Shown here: positions 1 to 52,161 of the stretch, piece after piece
Layout: each line of letters starts with the position of its first letter
How positions within the stretch are numbered: position 1 is the stretch's first letter
Assembly: GCF_923868895.1 (NCBI RefSeq)
Contig: NZ_OV350343.1
Span: 806,001-870,000, forward strand
Source of the DNA: Halomonas sp. TD01
Lineage (GTDB): Bacteria; Pseudomonadota; Gammaproteobacteria; Pseudomonadales; Halomonadaceae
Direction: 5' to 3'
DNA length: 64,000 bases
Notes under the pieces: generated by a model
What the model saw: the letters and a program-made list of their open reading frames with translations, nothing else
What the model was told of the DNA's origin: nothing
Database searches by the model: none
Translations under genes and position numbers: made by a program

Positions 1-1939
<1,939 letters not shown>

Positions 1940-2059
1940 CTATAACCCGAAGGAGTCTGGTGTCTCGCAATGATAACGATTGCCGGATACGCTTGAGACG
2001 TATCACAAAACAATTACGTATAAACGTTTCAAAAACGTTTATGTCAGCATGATATACAT

Positions 2060-2070
2060 TGTTAAAGAGC
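2060..2070 (-). promoter_or_regulatory. boxA antitermination element in the 16S-23S spacer
   Basis: The reverse strand reads GCTCTTTAACA, the boxA core bound by NusB/S10 in rRNA antitermination. It lies between tRNA-Ala and 23S, as in other gammaproteobacterial rrn operons. The same element occurs in the 16S leader at 4220-4230. The rest of the spacer 1940-2167 shows no gene. Confidence 0.8.
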
Positions 2071-2167
2071 GACTGTTCGATGAACAGTGATAAGACAACG
2101 CACTAGCTGCGCATGGCTTATCAATGGTCACAAAACATCAACAAACGGTGGGTAGTGTACTACATAA

Positions 2168-2243
2168 TGGTGGAGCCAAGCGGGATCGAACCGCTGACCT
2201 CCTGCGTGCAAGGCAGGCGCTCTCCCAGCTGAGCTATGGCCCC
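2168..2243 (-). tRNA. tRNA-Ala (anticodon TGC)
   Basis: The reverse strand folds as a cloverleaf: acceptor GGGGCCA paired with TGGCTCC, anticodon loop containing TGC, T arm GGTTCGATCC, and an encoded CCA end. It is 76 nt long and sits in the 16S-23S spacer, the usual place for this tRNA. Confidence 0.97.
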
Positions 2244-2353
2244 ATTTTTTTGCCGACCTAACCTCTTGCCATTAATTTCTGCGAGACAAGGCAAAATGCA
2301 ACGACGTATAGCCTGCTATACGAAGAGCATTTTAACGCAGTATCACAGGAATT

Positions 2354-2430
<77 letters not shown>

Positions 2431-2517
2431 AAGAGGGGATCGTGCTTAAACCGTTTGCTCTATTATCTGATCAGGTAATTCATTGTGAGCGCTTACCGCG
2501 AGGGATGATGCATCGTT

Positions 2518-4052
<1,535 letters not shown>

Positions 4053-15406: not shown

Positions 15407-16306
15407 ATGACCCATACCACGCACTACCGGGGACGTTTCGCTCCCACACCGTCAGGGCCACTTCATCTTGGCTCGCTAGTGGCCGCCCTAGGCAGCTATT
15501 TAGACGCCCGCGCTGTTGGCGGGCAGTGGCTGGTGCGCATTGAAGATATCGACCCACCCCGCTGCCCTGAAGGCGCTGCTGATACAATTCTGCGTCAGCT
15601 TGACGCCTTTGGGCTTCATTGGGATAAAGAAATCCGCTGGCAGCGTCACCGTAATGAGGCTTATCAGCAGGCGCTTGATCAACTGGCTGCCCAAGGCTTG
15701 GCTTACCCATGTAGCTGTTCGAGAAAGCAGTGGCAAGCGTTCTCAACCTACCCTGGCTGGTGCCGCGACAGCGTTCGTGATGCCACAAAGCCAGTTGCCT
15801 GGCGGCTGCGCAGCGACCTGGCAAAGCGCCCAATTACTTGGCAAGATCGGCTTTTTGGTTTCCAACAGTTCGACCCTGACGTTTTGGGTGATGTTGTGCT
15901 TAAACGAAAAGATCAGCTTTGGGCCTACCAGCTCGCCGTCGTAGTGGATGATGCTGACCAAGGCATTACCGATATTGTGCGCGGTTATGACCTGCTGGAT
16001 AACACGCCTTGGCAAGGCCAGCTACAGGAAGCGCTTGGCTTATCAATCCCCAGTTACCTGCATTTACCACTCGTGGTTACTCAAGATGGTCAAAAGCTTT
16101 CTAAGCAAAACCTGGCCCCTGCATTAGCCAAAGATGCCGGCGACATTCGCCAACAGCTGTTTCAAGCACTGCAATTACTCGATCAAGCGCCACCTGACAC
16201 ACTGGCTCAAGAGCCGCCAGAAACGCAGCTACACTGGGCAATGGCACATTGGTCTGTTGAAAAGCTTGTCGCCACCGCCCACCGCCGCTATCAACCAGAG
16301 TCTTAA
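15407..16306 (+). CDS. gluQ: glutamyl-Q tRNA(Asp) synthetase
   Basis: Attaches glutamate to queuosine at position 34 of tRNA-Asp. It is a GluRS paralogue lacking the anticodon-binding domain: [14 protein letters not shown] is the HIGH region, CSCSRKQW a zinc/cysteine site, and KLSKQN the KMSKS equivalent. 299 residues, normal length. The dksA-gluQ order is widely conserved in gammaproteobacteria. Confidence 0.94.
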
Positions 16307-16307
16307 T

Positions 16308-16484
16308 ATGTACGTTTATCGCATACTGCTGTTCTTGGTCTTTGGCGGATATTTGCTTTCGCCGTTACTGATGGACGGCTGGGGAGATCCAAGCGTTGCC
16401 TGGTATCGCCCATTTGCTATTTGGGGCGGCCTGATCGCGCTAACGCTATGGCTTGAGCAAAAAAGGAAGTTAGATGAGCGTTGA
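16308..16484 (+). CDS. cbrX: small inner-membrane protein upstream of cbrA (CbrX-like)
   Basis: A 58-residue protein with two hydrophobic segments (residues about 3-21 and 36-50) and a basic C-terminus. It begins one base after the gluQ stop codon and overlaps cbrA by 11 bases, so cbrA translation is probably coupled to it. In Pseudomonas a small membrane ORF in this exact position has been called cbrX. The symbol rests on position, size and topology, not on a measured similarity. Confidence 0.7.
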   Translation: MYVYRILLFLVFGGYLLSPLLMDGWGDPSVAWYRPFAIWGGLIALTLWLEQKRKLDER

Positions 16485-19419
16485 GCTGTTGGGGGTAGTG
16501 CTGCTGGGCTTAGGGTATCTGGCCCTGCTGTTTGCCTGCGGCATGGCCGTTGAGCGTGGCTGGGTGCCCGTGCGCATAACGCGCCATCCTATCGTGTACA
16601 CCCTGGCACTGGGCGTATACGCCAGCGCGTGGGCAATCTATGGCAGTGTTGAACTTGCGGCGAAAGCAGGCTTTGGCTACCTAGCGTATTACCTGGGTGC
16701 AGCCGGGGCATTTCTGTTGGCGCCCGTTTTGCTCGTGCCTATACAACGCATTACCCGAACTTATCAACTATCTTCACTCGCGGATCTATTTGCGTTTCGC
16801 TATCGATCTCGATGGGCAGGTACCCTGGTAACATTGATCAGCCTATTAGCTGTGATGCCACTGCTGGGTATCCAAGTACAAACCTTAAGCGATGCGGTAT
16901 ACCTGCTCACCGGCAGCCGCTACAGCGCAGCGGCTACCCTGCTGTTCTGCGGTGTAATCGCAGGCTGTGCGGTGTTGTTTGGCGCGCGCCACAGCCACCG
17001 ACATCGTCACGACACACTACTTAGCGTGATTGCTTTTGAATCGATCATCAAACTGCTGGCGATGCTGGGGCTGGGTGCTATTGCACTGTGGTGGGTGTTT
17101 GATGGGCTTCACGGATTACAACAGTGGCTAGAAGGACCAGGAGCCGCAGCTCAAGCCGCAACGCCACAACTTGAAGCGCCCCAATGGCGCACGCTACTAC
17201 TGCTGTTCTTTGCGGCCGCTTTCATGATGCCGCATCTATTTCAGATTACGTTTGCAGAAAGCCTTTCTCGCCACACCCTGCTTCAAGCCAGTTGGACATT
17301 ACCGCTGTTTCTGCTGCTGATGGCGCTTCCAGTGCCTTTGATCTGGTGGGCTGCACAATCAGTAAACGAGACGGTTCCGGTTGCAGCCTACGCCGCCTTC
17401 TTGATGTCAGAACATTGGTGGGTAGGCGCGTTAGCCTTCATTGGCGGCCTTGCCGCCGCCAGCGGCACTATGATGATGATTGCGCTAGCTCTTTCGGGCA
17501 TGGTGCTAAACCACGTGGTGCTAGTGGCTCGCCCCCCGGAGGCGCGTAGCGATTTATACGGCTGGCTACTATGGCTACGTCGCGGCTTAGTCGTCGCTGT
17601 GATTGCGGGCGGATGGCTATTTGCTGAAAGCGTTGGCCGTTACCACTCGCTGACAAACCTGGGGCTAGCTGCATTTGTAGGCATGGCGCAGTGCCTGCCG
17701 GGCATGCTGGCGTTGTTGTACTGGCCTGGCGCGAACCGCAAGGGCATGATCGCCGGGCTAATGGGCGGCATCATCATTTGGCTGTGGGGTTTATGGTTGC
17801 CACTTTTGTTCGAGCTACCCATGCTCTCGCTGCCCCTCACCCCTCTGATGTCTGCGGATGCGCCCATCTGGTATAACGTTACGCTTGTTTCTTTAGCGGT
17901 TAATATTTTACTGCTGATCATTGTGTCGTTATTTACCCGCATCTCAGAAGGTGAACGCTCTGCGGCCGAAGCGTGCTCTGTAGACGCAGTCATTCGCTCA
18001 AAACGCTTACCACTGGAAGCAGCCACGGCTGGAGACTTTCCTACTTACCTTGCCCAAGCGTTGGGTGATGAGGCTGCCAGCCGTGAAGTTGACCGCGCAC
18101 TGACGGCGCTAAACCTAACACCCCAGGAGCGCCGCCCCTATGCACTGCGCCGCCTGCGCGACCGAATCCAGGCTAATTTATCTGGTTTAATGGGGCCTTC
18201 CGTCGCACGAGATATTGTTGATCGCTACTTACCTTATCGCCACGACGATGCGCCGGTCACTGACGATATTCATTTTGTCGAAAGTCGTCTTGAAGCCTAT
18301 CGTTCGCGGCTCACTGGACTGGCTCGGGAGCTGGATGGCTTGCGCCGTCATCACCGGCAAACGCTGGCCTACTTGCCCGTCGGCTTGTGCGTGCTGGGCG
18401 ACGATGATGAGCTGTTAATGTGGAATCAGGCGCTTTCAGTGCTCTCCGGGATTAGCGGCGATAGCGTGATTGGCTCACGCCGAGATAGCCTGCCCCCACC
18501 CTGGCCCAATCTGCTGGGTAGCGTACTCAATGCCAATCAAACACCGCTGTATAAACAAGCAGTATCGCTACATGGTAAGGATTACTTCCTCACCCTTCAT
18601 AAAGCAGTGTTGAGCGGGCACGACAGCCGTGGCGGCAGCGTAATCCTGGTAGAAGACCATACTGAAATGAAGTGGCTAGAAGAGGAGCTTGTACACGCAG
18701 CTCGTTTGGCATCCATTGGGCAGCTTGCGGCGGGCGTGGCGCATGAAATCGGCAACCCCATCACAGGCATTTCGTCACTAGCACAAAACTTGCGCTACGA
18801 TACCGATGACCCAGCGTTACTGGAAACGGCTGACCAAATTCAACAGTTAACCCAACGAGTCACCAAGATTGTTAACTCGCTGGTCGGGTTTGCCCACGGC
18901 GGCCGACAGACTCTGCCATTACCAGCGTCCCCCGCTTCGCTTTCCACCATTAGCGAAGACGCGCTGCACTTGATCCATTTAGCTCGCTCGGGGGAGGATG
19001 TAAGCTTTACCAATGAGTGTCCAGATGACATCGTGGTGCGTGGCGACGCTCAGCGATTAACCCAGGTCATGGTCAACTTACTGAGCAATGCCAAAGATGC
19101 CTGCGACGCTCAGGGCACGGTGCATATCGAAGCAGGCAAACAGGCAAGCCATGCTTGGTGGCGGGTTACCGATGATGGCCATGGCATTGATTCAAGCGTG
19201 AAGCATCGCCTTTTTGAGCCATTCACCACGACCAAGCCTGCGGGCCAGGGAACCGGGCTTGGGCTCTCGCTGGCCTACCAAATTATCAATGAGCACCAAG
19301 GCAAAATAGAGGTTGCGTCACCGCCTCCAGGAAAGCCTCGCGGCACTGCCATTACGCTTTGGCTACCGCTTTACCAACAGGATGATCACCTACCTCATGC
19401 CCAGGATACTGATTGTTGA
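16474..19419 (+). CDS. cbrA: transporter-like sensor histidine kinase CbrA
   Basis: Sensor of the CbrAB system that governs carbon/nitrogen source use. 981 residues: the first ~500 form an SLC5 (sodium/solute symporter)-like membrane domain with about 13 helices; then a linker, a PAS-like region ([18 protein letters not shown]), the phosphorylated His in [14 protein letters not shown], and the HATPase domain with [15 protein letters not shown] and [13 protein letters not shown]. CbrA of Pseudomonas has the same fusion. Start ATG overlaps the preceding small ORF; its end overlaps cbrB. Confidence 0.93.
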
Positions 19420-20782
19420 AGATGAAGCGATTATTCGCAGCGCTTTAAAACGTTTACTCGAACGTCACAGCTATACCGTCAGCGAAGCTGGCAGCGCAGA
19501 AGAAGCACGTGAGCTGACCCCTAGCGAATTTGATCTAGTGATTAGCGATCTGCGACTCCCTGGTGATCCTGGCACCGCCCTAATTGAGGCCGCAGCACCC
19601 GCGCCAGTGCTGATCATGACCAGCTATGCCAGCATGCGCTCAGCCGTCGACGCGCTTAAGCAAGGAGCAGTGGACTATGTTGCTAAGCCATTTGATCATA
19701 CCGAGCTTTTAGAAACCGTCGAACGCATCCTACACAAACAGTCGATGCAGCAAGGCACACCACCAGATATCACCGATGAAGGAGGTGGCCGCCAAACCAT
19801 GATCGGCGATTGTACGGCTATGCAGCAGGTTTACACGCGCATTCGCAAGACAGCTCCGGCAGACGTTACCGTGCTGATTCAAGGAGAATCCGGCACAGGT
19901 AAAGAGCTCGTCGCCCGTGCCATTCATCAGCAAAGCAAGCGCGCAAAAGCATCATTGATTTGCGTGAACTGCGCGGCGATACCGGAAACGCTGATTGAGT
20001 CAGAGCTTTTCGGCCATGAAAAAGGCGCATTTACCGGCGCTAGCGCTGCCCGAACGGGGTTAGTCGAAGCCGCCGACGGTGGCACCCTGTTTCTAGATGA
20101 AATTGGTGAATTACCACTGGATGCCCAGGCACGGCTGTTACGTGTGCTGCAGGAAGGTGAAATCCGCAAAATTGGTTCCGTCGAAACACGTCATGTGGAC
20201 GTGCGCCTGATCGCCGCCACCCATAGAGACTTACGCGCACTGTCAAAAAGCGGTGAGTTTAGACTAGATCTCTACTATCGCCTCAACGTTATGCAGATTG
20301 AGCTGCCACCGCTGCGCGACCGTGAAGAAGACGTACTGAAGATAGCCGATATCCTGTTAGATAAAGCCTGCAAGCGCCATGACCGACAAGGGCTTCGTTT
20401 GTCACGAGCCTCCCGCCAGGACCTGCGCGACTATCCCTGGCCAGGTAACGTACGAGAGCTTGAGAATGCGCTGGAAAGAGGCGTGATTCTCGCTGAAGGG
20501 CATTTGATTCACCCAGATGACCTAGGCCTTGGGCCTGTTACCAACCGACCTCACTCTTCTGCAGGTAACGGCTCCGCATTAGCAAATGAATCGTCAGCGC
20601 CAAGCGGTGACGACGACGACCTTTCCCTTGAGGACTATTTTCAGCATTTTGTGCTGGAACATCAGGATCAAATGAGTGAAACCGAGTTAGCCCAAAAACT
20701 GGGGATCAGCCGTAAAAATTTATGGGAGCGACGCCAGCGTCTGGGAATTCCACGTAAAAAAACCGCGCGTCGCCCCAATTAG
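19397..20782 (+). CDS. cbrB: sigma54-dependent response regulator CbrB
   Basis: NtrC-family activator of 461 residues: receiver domain with phospho-acceptor Asp51 (ISDLRLPG), AAA+ domain with Walker A GESGTGKE (163-170) and the sigma54-contacting GAFTGA loop (210-215), and a C-terminal Fis-type HTH ([19 protein letters not shown]). The start [10 protein letters not shown] at 19397 lies inside the end of cbrA (23-base overlap); MITYL at 19382 is the alternative. Its expected main target, a CrcZ-like RNA with a sigma54 promoter, lies directly downstream. Confidence 0.93.
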
Positions 20783-21010
20783 GCGGTGGCACGACTTAAA
20801 TAAGCCACTCGTCACCCCGCCCCTACGACTAACGTCCAATAGATTGATTTGCATAAGAAATATTCTAAATCCTATCGCCAGACACTGTTACCTTCCCACA
20901 CAACACACACACAAAATCCGTTAAAAATGGGTAACACTATTCGATGAGATTAGTTCCCTGGCATAGCCAATAAATTCCAAGCCCATGAAAATAAAAGAAT
21001 AAAAAAAGGA
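20783..21010 (+). other. regulatory interval between cbrB and the CrcZ-like RNA
   Basis: No conserved protein frame is visible. The interval carries the paired TGTTAC/GTAACA sites described separately and an A-rich stretch (about 20987-21008) just before the sigma54 promoter that could bend DNA. No convincing terminator for cbrB was found. Confidence 0.6.
20886..20936 (+). promoter_or_regulatory. putative CbrB upstream activating sites
   Basis: TGTTAC (20886-20891) and its inverted partner GTAACA (20931-20936) are separated by 39 bases. They lie about 150 and 104 bases before the predicted start of the RNA. Sites with TGTTAC/GTAACA half-sites have been reported for CbrB at crcZ in Pseudomonas, though spacing differs among promoters. 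Distance and orientation suit an enhancer for a sigma54 promoter. Confidence 0.6.
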
Positions 21011-21026
21011 TGGCACAGCAAGTGCA
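21011..21026 (+). promoter_or_regulatory. sigma54 (RpoN) promoter of the CrcZ-like RNA
   Basis: TGGCACAGCAAGTGCA matches the sigma54 consensus TGGCACRNNNNTTGCW at all but one position, with the diagnostic GG (21012-21013) and GC (21024-21025) exactly 10 bases apart. Transcription would start near 21037. It lies directly downstream of the gene for a sigma54 activator. Confidence 0.8.
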
Positions 21027-21036
21027 GTATTACTGG

Positions 21037-21503
21037 GCAAGAAGAACAAAATGGGCAGCGCGGACGTCGCTAACAAAAACAAAATGACACCGCCCCAACC
21101 TGAGCCACAACAAAAACAACAGGGCCAGGCAGAGATCATAGTACTAACAAGAACAACAGGCTTGAGTCTCACTACTTGCTAGCGCTAAGCAGAATAGGCG
21201 CAGCGAACAATAACAACAGCCAGCAAGTGCCCAAAAAAGGACGCGACGTACACAAAGAATCTGCTTCCAAATAAAAATAATAGCAGCATGTGTGTACACC
21301 CCGGATCCAACAACAACTCGCCGGGAGAAAAAGTTCGCGGTTGGATTATTGTTTTGAATACGAGGCGGTCGGAATCAGACTGGTTCTTACGCCTACCGAC
21401 TGCGGTGCGTATTCAGGGCGATGTGCCATCATGAAGAAAAACAGCAGCATGGACGCTGATTGTCTGCTTTATAGGGGAGGCTCTTGTAGCCTCCCCTTTC
21501 CGC
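21037..21503 (+). ncRNA. crcZ: CrcZ-like Hfq/Crc-titrating small RNA
   Basis: Predicted RNA of about 465 nt between cbrB and pcnB, the same place as crcZ in Pseudomonas. It contains eight A-rich motifs of the Hfq-binding ARN type, near 21039, 21072, 21107, 21146, 21206, 21269, 21309 and 21433 (for example AACAATAACAACA at 21206). Stem-loops GTACACA/TGTGTAC (21248/21291), ATCCAAC/GTTGGAT (21305/21340) and GCGGTCGG/CCGACTGC (21365/21396) separate or display the motifs. It ends in a 10-bp hairpin. Such RNAs sequester Hfq-Crc and relieve catabolite repression. Open frames here are low quality. The 5' end is inferred from the promoter, the 3' end from the hairpin. Confidence 0.78.
21473..21500 (+). 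terminator. terminator hairpin of the CrcZ-like RNA
   Basis: Perfect stem AGGGGAGGCT (21473-21482) and AGCCTCCCCT (21488-21497) with loop CTTGT. The T tract after it is short (TTTCCGCGTTT), so termination may be incomplete. Confidence 0.75.
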
Positions 21504-21669: not shown

Positions 21670-23055
21670 ATGTTTAAAGGATTTACCCGTTTATTACATA
21701 GCCCGGGAGAGCACTTGAAATCCCTGCTCGATTCCCCAGAGAGCGCCGCTGATGCGCTCAGTCCCCGTATTATTCCGCGCTCCGAGCACCCTGTTTCTCG
21801 TCAGCAAATCAGCGAGGCCGCGTTAAAGGTGCTCTATCGCCTCAATGGCGCTGGATTTGATGCCTATCTAGTCGGCGGCTGCATTCGTGATGCACTGCTG
21901 GGCAAAATGCCGAAAGATTTCGACGTTGCCACAAATGCAACGCCGGAACAGGTGCGGGATCTGTTTCGTAATTCGCGGCTGATTGGTCGGCGCTTTCGCA
22001 TCGTGCATGTGCGCTTTGGCCGCGAAGTCATTGAAGTCACCACTTTCCGTGGCAAGCCTCAGGACGAGCACGGCGATCATATCGCCCAGCAATCTGACGA
22101 TGGTCTGCTATTGCGAGACAATGTGTGGGGCAATATCGAAGAAGACGCCCTACGCCGCGACTTCACCGTGAATGCGCTTTACTACAATATCGCTGACTTC
22201 ACGATTCATGACTTCGCTAATGGCGCGCGTGATATTGAATCGCGTACGCTGCGGCTAATTGGCGACCCGGTTACCCGCTATCGGGAAGACCCGGTGCGCA
22301 TGCTGCGTGCAGTGCGCTTTGCGGCCAAGCTTGACTTTACCATCGAGCCAGCCACCGAAGAGCCGATGTACGATCTAGCGCCGCTGTTACTGCAAATCCC
22401 TCCCGCCCGTTTGTTTGATGAAGTGCTCAAGCTATTCATGTCGGGGCACGGCTTAATTACTTTCCGCTTGCTGAGTCATTACAACTTGTTTGGCATGCTG
22501 TTCCCCGAAGCGGAAGAAGCCATGGCGGATGCCGCTTGGGCCGAAGACCTGATCGAACAAGCGCTCACTAATACCGACAAGCGCATTGCGGAAGGTCGGC
22601 CAGTGACGCCAGCCTTCCTGCTAGCCGCCTTTTTGTGGGCACCAGTGGCGCACCGTCAAGCAGAGCTTGAGCGAGAAGGCATGCCCGCAATTCCGGCGCT
22701 ACAAACTGCCGCACAACAGGTAGTCACACGTCAGTTACAGCATATTTCGATTCCCAAGCGCTTTGGCATGCCAATGCGCGATATTTGGGAGCTACAGGCT
22801 CGCCTTCCTCTACGCCGTGGCAAACGGGCATTTCAAACCCGCGAGCATCCACGTTTCCGAGCCGCCTACGATTTGCTGCTGTTACGTGAACAAGCAGGTG
22901 AAATTCCACGCGGCTTAGGCGATTGGTGGAATGCCTTTCAGCAAGGTGATGAGCACGAACAACTTCGGCTCCTACAAAAAGTGGGAAGTGATCCTGCAAG
23001 TCAGGGTGATCGTCGCCGTAAAAAACGCCGCAAACCGCGTAAAACAGAGCAGTGA
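21670..23055 (+). CDS. pcnB: poly(A) polymerase I
   Basis: Adds 3' poly(A) tails that speed RNA decay. The 461-residue protein has the class II nucleotidyltransferase core: YLVGGCIRDALLG, the metal-binding pair in KDFDVATNA, RRFRIVHVRFG and RRDFTVNALYYN, then the RNA-binding helical part and a basic C-terminal tail (RRRKKRRKPRK). Gene order cbrB-RNA-pcnB-folK-panB-panC matches Pseudomonas. Confidence 0.95.
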   Translation: MFKGFTRLLHSPGEHLKSLLDSPESAADALSPRIIPRSEHPVSRQQISEAALKVLYRLNGAGFDAYLVGGCIRDALLGKMPKDFDVATNATPEQVRDLFRNSRLIGRRFRIVHVRFGREVIEVTTFRGKPQDEHGDHIAQQSDDGLLLRDNVWGNIEEDALRRDFTVNALYYNIADFTIHDFANGARDIESRTLRLIGDPVTRYREDPVRMLRAVRFAAKLDFTIEPATEEPMYDLAPLLLQIPPARLFDEVLKLFMSGHGLITFRLLSHYNLFGMLFPEAEEAMADAAWAEDLIEQALTNTDKRIAEGRPVTPAFLLAAFLWAPVAHRQAELEREGMPAIPALQTAAQQVVTRQLQHISIPKRFGMPMRDIWELQARLPLRRGKRAFQTREHPRFRAAYDLLLLREQAGEIPRGLGDWWNAFQQGDEHEQLRLLQKVGSDPASQGDRRRKKRRKPRKTEQ

Positions 23056-30847: not shown

Positions 30848-31117
30848 TTAACGACGCAGACCTAAACGCTGAATCAGAGACTGATAGCGTTCAAAATCTT
30901 TACGCTTCAGGTAATCCAGCAGCTTACGACGCTGGTTTACCATGCGAATCAGACCACGACGAGAGTGGTGATCCTGCTTGTTGGTTTTGAAGTGGTCCTG
31001 CAGGCCATTAATGTTGGCGCTCAGCAGTGCAACCTGAACTTCAGGGGAACCGGTATCGTTATCGCCGCGGCCGTATTCGTTGACGATCTCGGCCTTCTTC
31101 TCAGCGGTTAATGCCAT
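30848..31117 (-). CDS. rpsO: 30S ribosomal protein S15
   Basis: 89-residue primary 16S-binding protein, full length for the family, with the conserved [12 protein letters not shown] and [20 protein letters not shown] segments. Located between truB and pnp as in most gammaproteobacteria. Confidence 0.98.
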
Positions 31118-31237
31118 CTGTCTCTCCAGTAAGCAATATGCCTAAAAAATGAATGGTTGAGACCACGCATATTTGCAGTCTCAGGCGACTATCTTCACGT
31201 ACAATTTTCGCGTAAATCGCTACATCCTTGCAACGTT

Positions 31238-44167: not shown

Positions 44168-47100
44168 TGACTTGCTCCTGCATGCAGATCCTGAAGGCGC
44201 CGCACCGTAATCTCCCTACCGTACTCAAGCGCCATGCAAACAGCATTAGCGCCCGCCAAGGTGGTCGCATAGGGCACCTTGCGCGCGAGAGCAGTACGGC
44301 GAATAATTGAAGAGTCGTTAATAGCCTGACGACCTTCAGTCGTGTTCACGATGTAGGCGATTTCGTCGTTCTTCAACAGATCGACGATATGGGGACGGCC
44401 TTCGTAGACTTTATTGACGTGCTCCACTTCCAGTCCAGCAGCTTCAAGTGCCTCTGCCGTACCGCGCGTTGCACATAGTGTGAAGCCCAATGTTAGCAGA
44501 GAACGTGCCACTTCGATAATCCCCTGCTTGTCTGGCTCACGCACCGAAAGGAACGCTTTGCGGTCGCCACTCAACGCAGGGATGGCTTCGCCAGCGCCTA
44601 ACTGCGCTTTAAAGAAGGCTTCTGCAAAGGTCTCGCCAGAGCCCATCACTTCACCCGTCGACTTCATCTCGGGCGACAGAATCGGGTCAACGCCCTGGAA
44701 CTTGTTGAACGGGAAGACCGCCTCTTTCACGCTATAGAAGTGCGGGATAATTTCGCGCTCAAAGCCCTGCTCGGCCAGTGTTTTACCCGCCATGCAGCGC
44801 GCCGCAATCTGCGCCAGCGAGGTGCCAATGCACTTAGACACAAACGGTACGGTACGCGATGCACGAGGGTTAACCTCGATGACATAAATTTCGCCATCCT
44901 GCCACGCTAGCTGCACGTTCATCAGACCTTTAACGCCCAGCTCAACGGCCATTTTCTTGACCTGCTCGCGCATTTCATCCTGCACATCGGCAGGCAACGA
45001 GTAAGGCGGCAATGCACAGGCGGAATCACCAGAGTGAACCCCCGCTTGCTCAACGTGCTGCATAATGCCGCCAATCACCACCTGCTGACCATCAGATACG
45101 GCGTCGATATCAATCTCGATTGCTGCACTCAAGAAGTGATCAAGCAGGACAGGGGAGTCGTTAGATACCTTCACCGCATTGGTCATGTAGTTTTCAAGCT
45201 CGGAGGCGTCATAAACGATCTCCATCGCCCGTCCACCTAGCACGTAACTAGGACGCACCACCAGCGGGTAGCCAATGGCCTCCGCCTTGGAAAACGCCTC
45301 TTCAAAGCTGCGGGCGGTGGCGTTGGGCGGCTGCTTCAAGCCTAGCTTGTCGATCATCACCTGGAAGCGCTCGCGGTCTTCAGCGCGGTCAATGGCATCC
45401 GGCGTGGTGCCGATAATCGGCACGCCTGCTGCCTCTAGCTCACGAGCAAGCTTCAACGGCGTTTGACCACCGAACTGAACAATCACGCCTACCGGCTTCT
45501 CTTTGTCGGCAATTTCCAACACATCTTCAAGCGTCACCGGCTCGAAGTAGAGGCGATCAGAGGTGTCGTAGTCGGTAGAAACGGTTTCCGGGTTGCAGTT
45601 GACCATGATGGTTTCATAGCCGTCATCGCGCATGGCGAAGGCAGCGTGAACACAGCAGTAATCGAATTCGATACCTTGACCGATACGGTTAGGACCGCCA
45701 CCCAATACCATAATTTTCTGGCGATCCGAGACATCCGCTTCGCACTCCTCTTCATAGGTGGAGTACATATAAGCGGTATCTGAGGCAAATTCCGCAGCAC
45801 AGGTGTCGACACGTTTATAAACCGGACGAATGCCCGCCGCCTGACGCGTTTTACGGAACTCTTTTTCAGACACGCCCAGCAGCTTAGCCAAACGCGCATC
45901 ACCAAAGCCTTTGCGTTTAAGTTGGTAAAGCTCGCGAGCAGAGAAATCGGCCAGGGCGCGCTTGGCGACGGCATTTTCAGTCAGCACCAGATCTTCCAAC
46001 TGCACCAGGAACCAAGGATCAATATTAGTGAGCGCAAATACCTCATCAACACTCATTCCTGAGCGCATGGCGTCAGCCACATAGAAAATACGCTCGGCAC
46101 CGGCGGCCTGCAGCTCACCCTGAATGATCGCCATGTTGTCTGGCGTGAAATCGGTGATGATCGGATCAAGGCCATCGTTACCGGTTTCCAGACCGCGCAG
46201 CGCTTTCTGCAGCGACTCTTGGAACGTACGGCCAATCGCCATCACTTCGCCAACCGACTTCATCTGGGTAGTCAGGCGGTCGTTTGCCTGGGGGAATTTC
46301 TCGAAGGTAAAGCGCGGAATCTTAGTGACGACATAATCGATTGATGGCTCAAACGACGCGGGCGTGCGGCCACCGGTAATATCGTTTTGCAGCTCATCCA
46401 GGGTATAACCTACTGCCAGCTTGGCAGCGATTTTAGCAATCGGGAAGCCAGTGGCCTTAGATGCCAGCGCCGACGAGCGCGATACCCGCGGGTTCATCTC
46501 GATAACCACTAGGCGACCAGTTTTTGGGTCCATACCAAACTGTACGTTGGAGCCGCCGGTTTCTACACCAATCTCGCGCAGTACCGCCAGGCTAGCGTCA
46601 CGCATGATCTGGTACTCTTTGTCGGTCAGCGTTTGCGCTGGCGCGACGGTAATCGAGTCACCGGTGTGGACGCCCATCGGATCGAAGTTTTCAATCGCAC
46701 AGACAATGATGCAGTTGTCATTCTTATCCCGCACCACTTCCATCTCGTACTCTTTCCAACCCAGCAGCGACTCATCAATCAACAGCTCGTGGTTGTTGGA
46801 AAGCTCGAAACCGCGGGTGCAGATCTCTTCGAACTCTTCTTTGTTATACGCCACACCGCCGCCGGAGCCGCCCATGGTGTAAGAAGGACGAATAATGGTC
46901 GGGAAGCCGAGTTCCGCCTGAATCTCCCAGGCTTCATCCATGGTGTGCGCCACCTTGGCTTTCGGGCACTCCAAACCAATACGCTTCATGGCTTGATCGA
47001 ACAGATCGCGATCTTCAGCCATGTTAATCGCATCGGCGTTGGCACCAATCATCTCGACGCCGTACTTTTCCAGCACGCCATGCTTTTCAAGGTCAAGCGC

Positions 47101-50676: not shown

Positions 50677-52161
50677 ATGATTACTTTTCACCTCAATGGG
50701 CAACCGCACCGCCTTACGGCGGATGCTCACCTTAGCGTTCTGGAACTGCTAAGAGAACAGCTACACCTAACCGGCACCAAGGAAGGTTGCGCGTCAGGTG
50801 ATTGCGGTGCCTGCACCGTGGCTATCGGCGCACCCGATGCCAATGGCGAACTATGCTACCACAGCGCCAACGCGTGCATCATGCCAGCTCACCAGCTCCA
50901 AGGCCGTCACTTAGTCACCGTCGAAGGTCTTGCTGATGACCAGCAATACTTGCATCCCGCCCAGGCAGCCATGGTCGAATGCCATGGTAGCCAATGCGGC
51001 TTCTGCACTCCGGGCATTGTGATGTCATTGTTCACACTGCACGAAGAACAACGCACTACCCCGCCAGCCGCTCCCTTTATCCCCGAACGCCTTGAAGCCG
51101 CACTTGGCGGCAACCTGTGTCGCTGCACCGGCTATCGCCCCATTCGTGATGCAGCGCTGGCAATGAACAATATCGATGGTCACCGCCCTACATGGTTAGA
51201 CGCAACGCTGGATGATGCGCAAGATAACCAACACGGGGCCAGCCTGGACGAAGCTAGCAGCCGCTTCCACCAGCCCCGTCAGTTGAATGACCTAGTGCGC
51301 CTACGCGCTGCCCACCCAGAAGCACGCTTGGTTGCAGGTGCCACTGACCTTTGGCTTGAAGTCACCCAGCAACTCAAGGACTTACCACGGCTTATCGATA
51401 CCACTCGCGTAAGTGAGCTTCAGCAAATTGAGCAAGGCCAGGATGTGAGCGGGCGTCCTGGCTGGTGGATCGGTGCAGCCGTCACCTATGCACGCTTGGA
51501 GCCTTTGCTCGAGAGTGAATACCCAGCCTTTGCCCATCTTCTACACCGCCTCGGCTCGGCTCAGGTACGCAACCGCGGCACCTTAGGCGGTAACGTCGCC
51601 AACGCATCCCCCATCGGCGACACCCCACCTGTGCTGCTGGCCCTTGATGCACAGCTTCGCCTTGCAGGCCCTAACGGCTTCCGCGAGATTGCCGCCAGCA
51701 ACTTCTTCATCGACTACAAAAAGACCAACCTGACAGAAGATGAAGTGTTAAGCGCGGTCTTCATCCCGGCCCCGCAAGCAGGCCGCCAGCTGAAAGTATG
51801 GAAGCTCTCGAAGCGGCGCGAAGATGATATTTCTGCCGTGCTGGGTGCCTTTGCCTGGCATATGGAGGATGGATGCCTACGCGATGTACGCCTGGCCTTC
51901 GGCGGCATGGCCGGCATTCCTGCCCGAGCCCGTGGGGCCGAAGCTGCTCTCGAAGGACTCCCACCATCACCAACCGTATTCGAGGCTGCACGTAAAGCAC
52001 TCAGGAATGACTTTTCACCGATGAGTGATGTCCGCGGCAGTGCCGATTACCGCACGCGGTCAGCAAGCGCGCTACTTGAACGCCTGCGCCTGGTCATCGA
52101 ATCATCTACCCACACCCAAACACACACTCAGGAGGTGATGCTCCATGCGTACGCTCACTGA
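50677..52161 (+). CDS. xdhA: xanthine dehydrogenase small subunit (2Fe-2S and FAD)
   Basis: 494 residues. N-terminal plant-type ferredoxin domain with GCASGDCGACTV, then the second [2Fe-2S] domain with QCGFCTPGIVMS and NLCRCTGYRPI; the C-terminal half is an FAD-binding CO-dehydrogenase-flavoprotein domain (LVAGATDLWLEV; RNRGTLGGNVANASPIGD). Passes electrons from the molybdenum centre of XdhB to NAD. Overlaps xdhB by 17 bases. Confidence 0.94.
   Translation: MITFHLNGQPHRLTADAHLSVLELLREQLHLTGTKEGCASGDCGACTVAIGAPDANGELCYHSANACIMPAHQLQGRHLVTVEGLADDQQYLHPAQAAMVECHGSQCGFCTPGIVMSLFTLHEEQRTTPPAAPFIPERLEAALGGNLCRCTGYRPIRDAALAMNNIDGHRPTWLDATLDDAQDNQHGASLDEASSRFHQPRQLNDLVRLRAAHPEARLVAGATDLWLEVTQQLKDLPRLIDTTRVSELQQIEQGQDVSGRPGWWIGAAVTYARLEPLLESEYPAFAHLLHRLGSAQVRNRGTLGGNVANASPIGDTPPVLLALDAQLRLAGPNGFREIAASNFFIDYKKTNLTEDEVLSAVFIPAPQAGRQLKVWKLSKRREDDISAVLGAFAWHMEDGCLRDVRLAFGGMAGIPARARGAEAALEGLPPSPTVFEAARKALRNDFSPMSDVRGSADYRTRSASALLERLRLVIESSTHTQTHTQEVMLHAYAH

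Follow-up and report, generated by a model that had tools for sequence, protein, structure and literature searches.

A putative CrcZ-like small RNA with a near-invariant 3' domain between cbrB and pcnB in Halomonas sp. TD01 and its relatives

The locus was analysed in a stretch of 64,000 nucleotides from the genome of Halomonas sp. TD01, referred to below as the window. The genes stand in the order dksA, gluQ, an open reading frame (ORF) of 58 codons, cbrA, cbrB, a gap and pcnB, with the following positions.

15407-16306: gluQ
16474-19419, + strand: cbrA, an ORF for a sensor kinase with a transporter-like N-terminal part and a histidine kinase C-terminal part
19391-20782, + strand: cbrB, a sigma54 activator gene with NtrC-type family matches, none above cut-off
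21670-23055, + strand: pcnB (TIGR01942, 540.6 bits against a cut-off of 305.65)

The sensor kinase was taken to be CbrA from its position, its length and the literature; histidine-kinase families matched its product at 596-974, all under their cut-offs. The 58-codon ORF (16308-16484, + strand) overlaps the cbrA start, had no NCBIfam match and has the same placement as cbrX of P. putida in the available text of PMC6591292. Among the matches listed, the nearest to the window CbrB was that of H. sulfidaeris (L171, 98% identical), and the nearest to its PcnB was that of V. alkaliphila (L147, 99.8% identical). The gap was 887 nt long by the gene ends (20782 and 21670); an earlier note on this DNA had placed it rightly between cbrB and pcnB, but its length of 888 bases did not stand. 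Two ORFs, of 142 codons (+) and 83 codons (-), overlap the region. When 69 loci were searched, a stop-free homologue of at least 90% of the length was found in none of the 65 matched loci for the former and in one of 31 for the latter. A small protein was thus rejected, in agreement with the earlier view that the gap holds no credible gene. Elsewhere on the minus strand, the window carries a partial 23S rRNA, two tRNAs and a full 16S rRNA at 1-4050, and a ribosomal S15 leader at 31061-31186 (42.1 bits against a cut-off of 39.5).

The gap contained a sigma54 promoter preceded by two CbrB-type subsites.

20886-20891, + strand: CbrB-type subsite F1, TGTTAC, after the published consensus (PMC8871633)
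20931-20936, + strand: CbrB-type subsite R2, GTAACA, 39 nt after F1 and 80 nt before TGGCAC
21011-21026, + strand: sigma54 promoter TGGCACAGCAAGTGCA, conserved in the alignment of relatives

The promoter, claimed beforehand as near-perfect, had one mismatch to TGGCAC-N5-TTGCA, its -12 element being GTGCA instead of TTGCA. The pattern TGGCACR-N4-NTGCW occurred two times in all over the two strands of the window, compared with 0.12 expected for even base composition; the other occurrence was at 44495 (-). The GC at 21024-21025 puts the predicted +1 at about 21037, which agrees with the start proposed earlier. In the available text of PMC8871633, the CbrB consensus is TGTTAC-N12-14-GTAACA-N15-19-GTAACA, and its spacers set the outer sites, F1 and R2, 33-39 nt apart. 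The outer sites of the window lie at 39 nt, while the middle GTAACA site was not recognisable. For comparison, 30 loci of the G312 family, probably Pseudomonadaceae, were picked by their match to the Rfam CrcZ model, adjacency to cbrB not being a criterion. The F1-R2 distance was 36-38 nt in 23 of them. An R-type site preceded TGGCAC by 80-82 nt in 25 of the loci, and the pair was absent from four. In the relatives with cbrAB, TGTTAC and GTAACA were each found in 68 of 68 upstream regions. Furthermore, sites paired at a distance of 36-42 nt occurred in 62 of these 68 regions versus none of the 23 unique regions from loci without cbrAB. The supposed link to rpoN and cbrB was therefore supported at the sequence level: the promoter was conserved, and the CbrB sites accompanied adjacent cbrAB and were absent without it.

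Downstream of the promoter, the following elements were predicted.

21037-21503, + strand: predicted CrcZ-like RNA of about 465 nt, delimited by promoter position, terminal hairpin and fold
21038-21051, 21072-21084, 21105-21122, 21146-21158, 21206-21218, 21267-21277 and 21307-21317, + strand: A-rich clusters 1-7
21434-21443, + strand: eighth A-rich cluster
21473-21499, + strand: terminator-like hairpin AGGGGAGGCU...AGCCUCCCCU, conserved in the alignment

The eight A-rich motifs claimed were recovered as eight clusters holding 14 overlapping copies of AANAANAA between 21037 and 21503. In 1000 dinucleotide shuffles the mean was 0.97 and the maximum 7; no shuffle reached 14, and chance A-richness was rejected. 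Over both strands, the median count per 467-nt stretch was 0 and the 95th percentile 1, and the 14 stretches with the highest counts were all at this locus. The stricter motif AAYAAYAA occurred three times in the RNA, a number attained by one of 1000 shuffles. The predicted fold of 21037-21503 had an energy of -144.9 kcal/mol (z -4.0), and that of 21330-21503 an energy of -74.2 (z -5.6). The terminal hairpin was present as claimed, with a short U-tract (UUU, then CC).

CbrB orthologues were found in 114 of 151 family genomes (E ≤ 1e-110, the ten top first-look candidates of each genome being scored). In total 70 cbrB-pcnB gaps were read, namely the window, 68 others of its family and L037 from outside it, with L007 omitted as identical to the window. 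They measured 626-1110 nt and held 8-26 copies of AANAANAA each, compared with 0-3 in up to 1000 nt at 28 control loci with a CbrB-like gene and no following pcnB; the motifs are thus conserved in relatives, as the earlier note required. At L084 and L095 the promoter script found no site or a misplaced one. An alignment of 21 of the 70 gaps showed TGTTACC...GGTAACAC, the sigma54 site, the A-rich half, a near-invariant 3' block and a GC-rich terminal hairpin, the 3' block being missing from L037. CbrB-like matches in other families were discarded, having no pcnB or such RNA after them.

The 3' block was the most conserved part of the RNA, and its elements in the window were as follows.

21334-21436, + strand: conserved 3' domain, model R1 (106.5 bits, the window sequence being within the R1 training set)
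21348-21362, + strand: left arm of a 15-bp helix, AUUGUUUUGAAUACG
21408-21422, + strand: right arm of the 15-bp helix, CGUAUUCAGGGCGAU
21365-21370, + strand: left arm of a second helix, GCGGUC, pairing with GACUGC at 21398-21403, with compensatory changes

The left arm block ATTGTTTTGAATACGAGRYGG occurred with at most two changes in 69 of 69 family loci fetched through CbrB and pcnB, and hence chosen independently of it (L007-L036 and L065-L104 without L100, L007 being the window). The right arm occurred in all 155 non-redundant sequences, again with no more than two changes. For the covariation test, 35 sequences with a mutual similarity below 90% were taken. The 3' structure paired in 95.2% of cells, compared with 91.8% in column shuffles and 32-49% when the structure was slid, and 31 cells were changed on both sides compared with 7.4 in shuffles. 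RNAalifold returned the same two helices. In the long helix 10 of 15 pairs were invariant and none was changed on both sides, so that its support comes from one-sided changes that keep the pair; 24 of 26 departures retained a standard pair, and U.G wobbles were conserved. For this reason, an inverted repeat acting at the DNA level is unlikely. Compensatory changes in the stems, suggested earlier as a check, were found at four of the nine pairs of the second helix. Two further statistics did not stand out: additional pair types numbered 22 versus 21.7 in shuffles (285 of 500 as high), and pairs changed on both sides numbered 5 versus 2.7 (5 of 500 as high).

Model R1 was built from these 35 sequences, which match it by construction. 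It matched 148 of 151 family genomes at one place each (in G097 on both strands of that place) and missed G017, G018 and G024; L037 and L225 gave no match. Among 369 genomes sampled from the class, R1 picked up the three of the family and, besides them, two weak matches. The latter, in G181 (26.7 bits, E 2.3e-4) and G203 (19 bits, E 0.095), were not accepted; that in G181 is probably due to chance, because no core was present within six substitutions in the surrounding stretch. The left arm block was not found within five changes in any of the 29 readable Rfam-CrcZ loci (L285 was too short). The near-invariant 3' domain of the family RNA, not found in Rfam-CrcZ loci, is new here. That both arms hardly vary points to binding of a protein or of a partner RNA, and the most likely role of the domain is to stabilise the RNA or to offer a second contact for protein.

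A scan of genome contigs with ATTGTTTTGAATACGAGRYGG yielded at least 120 stretches. The genera named among these 120 were Halomonas, Vreelandella, Billgrantia, Chromohalobacter, Salinicola, Cobetia, Onishia, Modicisalibacter, Litchfieldella, Aidingimonas, Halovibrio, Marinospirillum and Oceanospirillum, together with MAGs labelled Halomonadaceae and one (L158) labelled Pseudomonadaceae. In the L158 MAG, an RNA of this type lies between a cbrB and a pcnB that are about 60% identical to those of the window, and the label may be wrong. Among 80 stretches checked, pcnB followed in 75, and four of the other five end too early. At L132 (Halomonas dongshanensis), the core and an upstream cbrB were present with no pcnB match in the next 1.2 kb.

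The R1 domain was found in 113 of the 114 genomes with a CbrB match and also in 35 of the 37 without one under the scoring limits given above. CbrAB therefore cannot be the sole reason for the RNA to exist. Twenty of these 35 loci were fetched (L241-L260); all had the order gluQ-RNA-pcnB with no cbrA or cbrB match between, carried 8-18 copies of AANAANAA and showed a sigma54-type site at a distance of 300-342 nt upstream of the core. In a PcnB tree of 89 loci, the bootstrap of which was not fully settled, the cbrAB label changed five times, with at least three changes forced by well-supported branches. Because L037 also has cbrB next to the RNA, loss of cbrAB is the simpler reading, by which the RNA was retained in several lineages after cbrAB had left the locus. 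The 23 upstream regions without cbrAB comprised the 20 fetched loci, L115 and L133 (both Salinicola salarius) and L164 (MAG). The motif TGCACCA, which we take to resemble an NtrC half-site, occurred in 17 of them (shuffled mean 0.48) and in 25 of the 68 regions with cbrAB (2.08), and it is possibly the site of another sigma54 activator.

The relation to Pseudomonas CrcZ was examined with Rfam and with a profile of the family RNA. Nothing reached the Rfam threshold within the gap. With lax limits three CrcZ fragments of 10.4-13.4 bits appeared, far below the RF01675 cut-off of 95, in line with the earlier expectation that standard models may miss this RNA. RF01675 had no match in G000, G010 or G015, while it matched 54 of 59 genomes in the family of G312, probably Pseudomonadaceae, 51 of them above cut-off. 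The RNA falls outside RF01675 by the Rfam threshold. The profile was made from 38 family RNAs, and the set searched with it comprised 29 Rfam-CrcZ loci plus 145 shuffled copies; its best match had 11.6 bits (E 5.4e-4 in this small set), and the 40 best rows were all real sequences. Sequence homology to CrcZ was not claimed, because the matches were weak, lay mostly in the A-rich 5' half and can be explained by the shared A-rich motif. A UUGGA was present just before the core in 145 of 155 sequences, and a UUGGA was present also in 29 of 29 readable Rfam-CrcZ loci. In the latter (of L225 and L261-L289) it lies within a conserved TTTTGGA around +100. The contexts differ, and the shared UUGGA was dropped as a link.

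Compared with CrcZ (RF01675; Pseudomonas and Azotobacter, with the paralogues CrcY and CrcX), the Halomonas RNA has in common the place between cbrB and pcnB (seen in L037 and L225), the sigma54 promoter, the geometry of the CbrB sites, several A-rich motifs, and Hfq and Crc in the genome. It differs in its 3' domain, in its score far under the Rfam cut-off and in being kept without cbrAB in several lineages. Moreover, R1 has one copy per genome, whereas RF01675 matched two to four places in some genomes. The order gluQ-cbrA-cbrB-RNA-pcnB and the DNA sites are the same as for Pseudomonas CbrA and CbrB. These are confined to Pseudomonadaceae in the available text of the reviews, whereas here another family had CbrB in 114 of 151 genomes.

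Both hfq and crc, the partners looked for in the genome, were present. Five EEP-family matches were obtained, of which L004 was nearest to Crc (2myi, 262.8 bits; 4jg3, 254.6), followed by the nuclease 2jc5 (224.7). Residues E, D, N, D and H of 2jc5, presumably catalytic, correspond to N, T, H, E and F in L004 and to D, S, Y, Q and H in 4jg3; judging from these residues, compared in this genome, Crc is catalytically degenerate, as Pseudomonas Crc is. A Crc match (E ≤ 1e-30), counted as a match alone, was found in 151 of 151 family genomes. Co-loss of Crc and the RNA was not found; G017 and G018 have Crc without an RNA match. For likely targets, 348 genes were called by a crude rule in 464 kb (20 genome stretches and the window). 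Fourteen had AANAANAA within -35..+20 of the start, one being a false ORF inside the RNA, and the motif numbered 11 in the bin -40..-21 compared with 3-9 in other upstream bins. Ten of the 14 were scanned against NCBIfam; PaaN, XdhA and HsdR passed, four were below cut-off and three had no match. The weak excess of A-rich motifs at start codons is suggestive at most. In the window, xdhA (xanthine dehydrogenase small subunit, 50677-52158, + strand) has AACCAATAACAACAT just before its start and is a candidate Hfq/Crc target. An A-rich motif also stands ahead of the start of paaN (phenylacetate degradation; L308, 842-2515, + strand).

We consider it quite probable that the gap encodes a small RNA, about 465 nt long and driven by sigma54 and CbrB, which functions in the manner of CrcZ. 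In its favour are the place of the RNA, the geometry of its promoter and operator, the A-rich motifs and the partner genes, besides the covarying stems and the lack of a conserved ORF, all read from sequence, and these likewise favour the CrcZ-type RNA and the CbrAB-CrcZ-Hfq/Crc circuit that the earlier note had proposed. From them we infer transcription, activation by CbrB, binding of Hfq/Crc and relief of repression. When poorer carbon sources are needed, phosphorylated CbrB would bind TGTTAC/GTAACA and fire the sigma54 promoter. The A-rich motifs of the RNA would then take up the distal face of Hfq, Crc being its partner, and Hfq/Crc would release catabolic mRNAs. Counted against the CrcZ-like reading were the Rfam scores of at most 13.4 bits, the profile match of 11.6 bits, Crc in genomes without the RNA, the RNAs without cbrAB and the weak targets.

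The 3' part may in addition bind a second regulator, as indicated by one further element.

21445-21458, + strand: hairpin CAGC-AUGGAC-GCUG with GGA in the loop, a candidate CsrA/RsmA-type site

In relatives, CAGC-ANGGAN-GCUG or a variant stands after the long helix. Counting solely this hairpin, an ANGGA loop was present in 127 of 155 unique sequences, compared with a mean of 5.35 and a maximum of 10 in 40 shuffled sets. Higher counts of 151 (ANGGA within 75 nt) and 148 of 155 were set aside, as they include the terminator region. So was a further count in which near-copies were retained and loci not listed otherwise were taken to have cbrAB. In the 29 readable Rfam-CrcZ loci, ANGGA was absent from the last 170 nt. 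CsrA is encoded in the genome. In RsmY, RsmZ and CsrB, decoys of CsrA/RsmA, the common feature is likewise GGA in a hairpin loop; their promoter type and neighbourhood are other than here. According to the available text of PMC6061880, RsmA binds P. aeruginosa CrcZ in vitro at an AGGGA of the 3' half and RsmN binds it at a UUGGA of the 5' half, which gives the CsrA link a precedent. A dual decoy, in which the A-rich part titrates Hfq/Crc and the 3' part CsrA or another protein, is therefore a possibility, though one that we consider less likely than not; it is compatible with the CrcZ-like reading and would join carbon repression to the Csr/Rsm system. The near-invariant helix beside the hairpin also speaks for it. 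However, one hairpin was scored in this RNA, whereas CsrB/RsmZ-type decoys carry many of them. Moreover, the hairpin was absent, by eye, from 10 of the 20 fetched loci without cbrAB, namely L249 (g4) and L251-L259 (g8, g10, g15, g16).

It is unlikely that the 3' domain does the main work, acting on a partner RNA or protein, with the A-rich half secondary: the domain is the best conserved and outlives cbrAB, but the A-rich motifs are kept as well, both in the 70 gaps and in the 20 loci without cbrAB. A cis-acting pcnB leader rather than a free RNA is very improbable. The RNA does lie upstream of pcnB wherever this could be read, except in L132, but its end is marked by a conserved terminator-like hairpin, after which a block resembling a promoter, CTTTGCAAG...TACACT (by eye), stands before pcnB. 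A-richness arising by chance, or a small protein missed in annotation, for which the two overlapping ORFs might be cited, is almost certainly wrong, being contradicted by the shuffles, the unconserved frames and the covariation.

The CrcZ-like RNA might also constitute a distinct RNA family of Halomonas, Oceanospirillum and relatives, namely an Hfq/Crc and, through its 3' domain, CsrA decoy that was freed from CbrAB more than once and passed to another sigma54 activator. We put this forward tentatively, with TGCACCA as the first suspect for the site of that activator. In the available text of PMC8871633, CbrAB-CrcZ is unique to Pseudomonadaceae, with Pseudomonas and Azotobacter as exclusive hosts, and in that of PMC6296734 the system is exclusive of the Pseudomonads. 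As far as their available text goes, PMC9049629 has Halomonas in its references only, PMC5073097 is a seawater metatranscriptome with no tie of CbrA-CbrB to Halomonas, and PMC13101641 and PMC12164125 concern introduced sRNA tools where small RNA or Hfq is treated in Halomonas. No description of this RNA was found for Halomonas, Halomonadaceae or Oceanospirillales in a search with subscription papers and preprints mostly outside its range.

Since the reviews confine CbrAB-CrcZ to Pseudomonadaceae, the Halomonas locus widens its range. Locus, operator and Crc were found in members of Halomonas, Vreelandella, Chromohalobacter, Cobetia, Oceanospirillum, Marinospirillum and other genera. This suggests that the switch predates the split of these families, the alternative being transfer between them. 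The lineages without cbrAB at the locus amount to a natural deletion of the regulator, so that the role of the RNA and its driver can be tested apart, and the near-invariant 3' domain is a concrete target, open to RNA biochemistry at once. Furthermore, the finding concerns genera used as industrial chassis.
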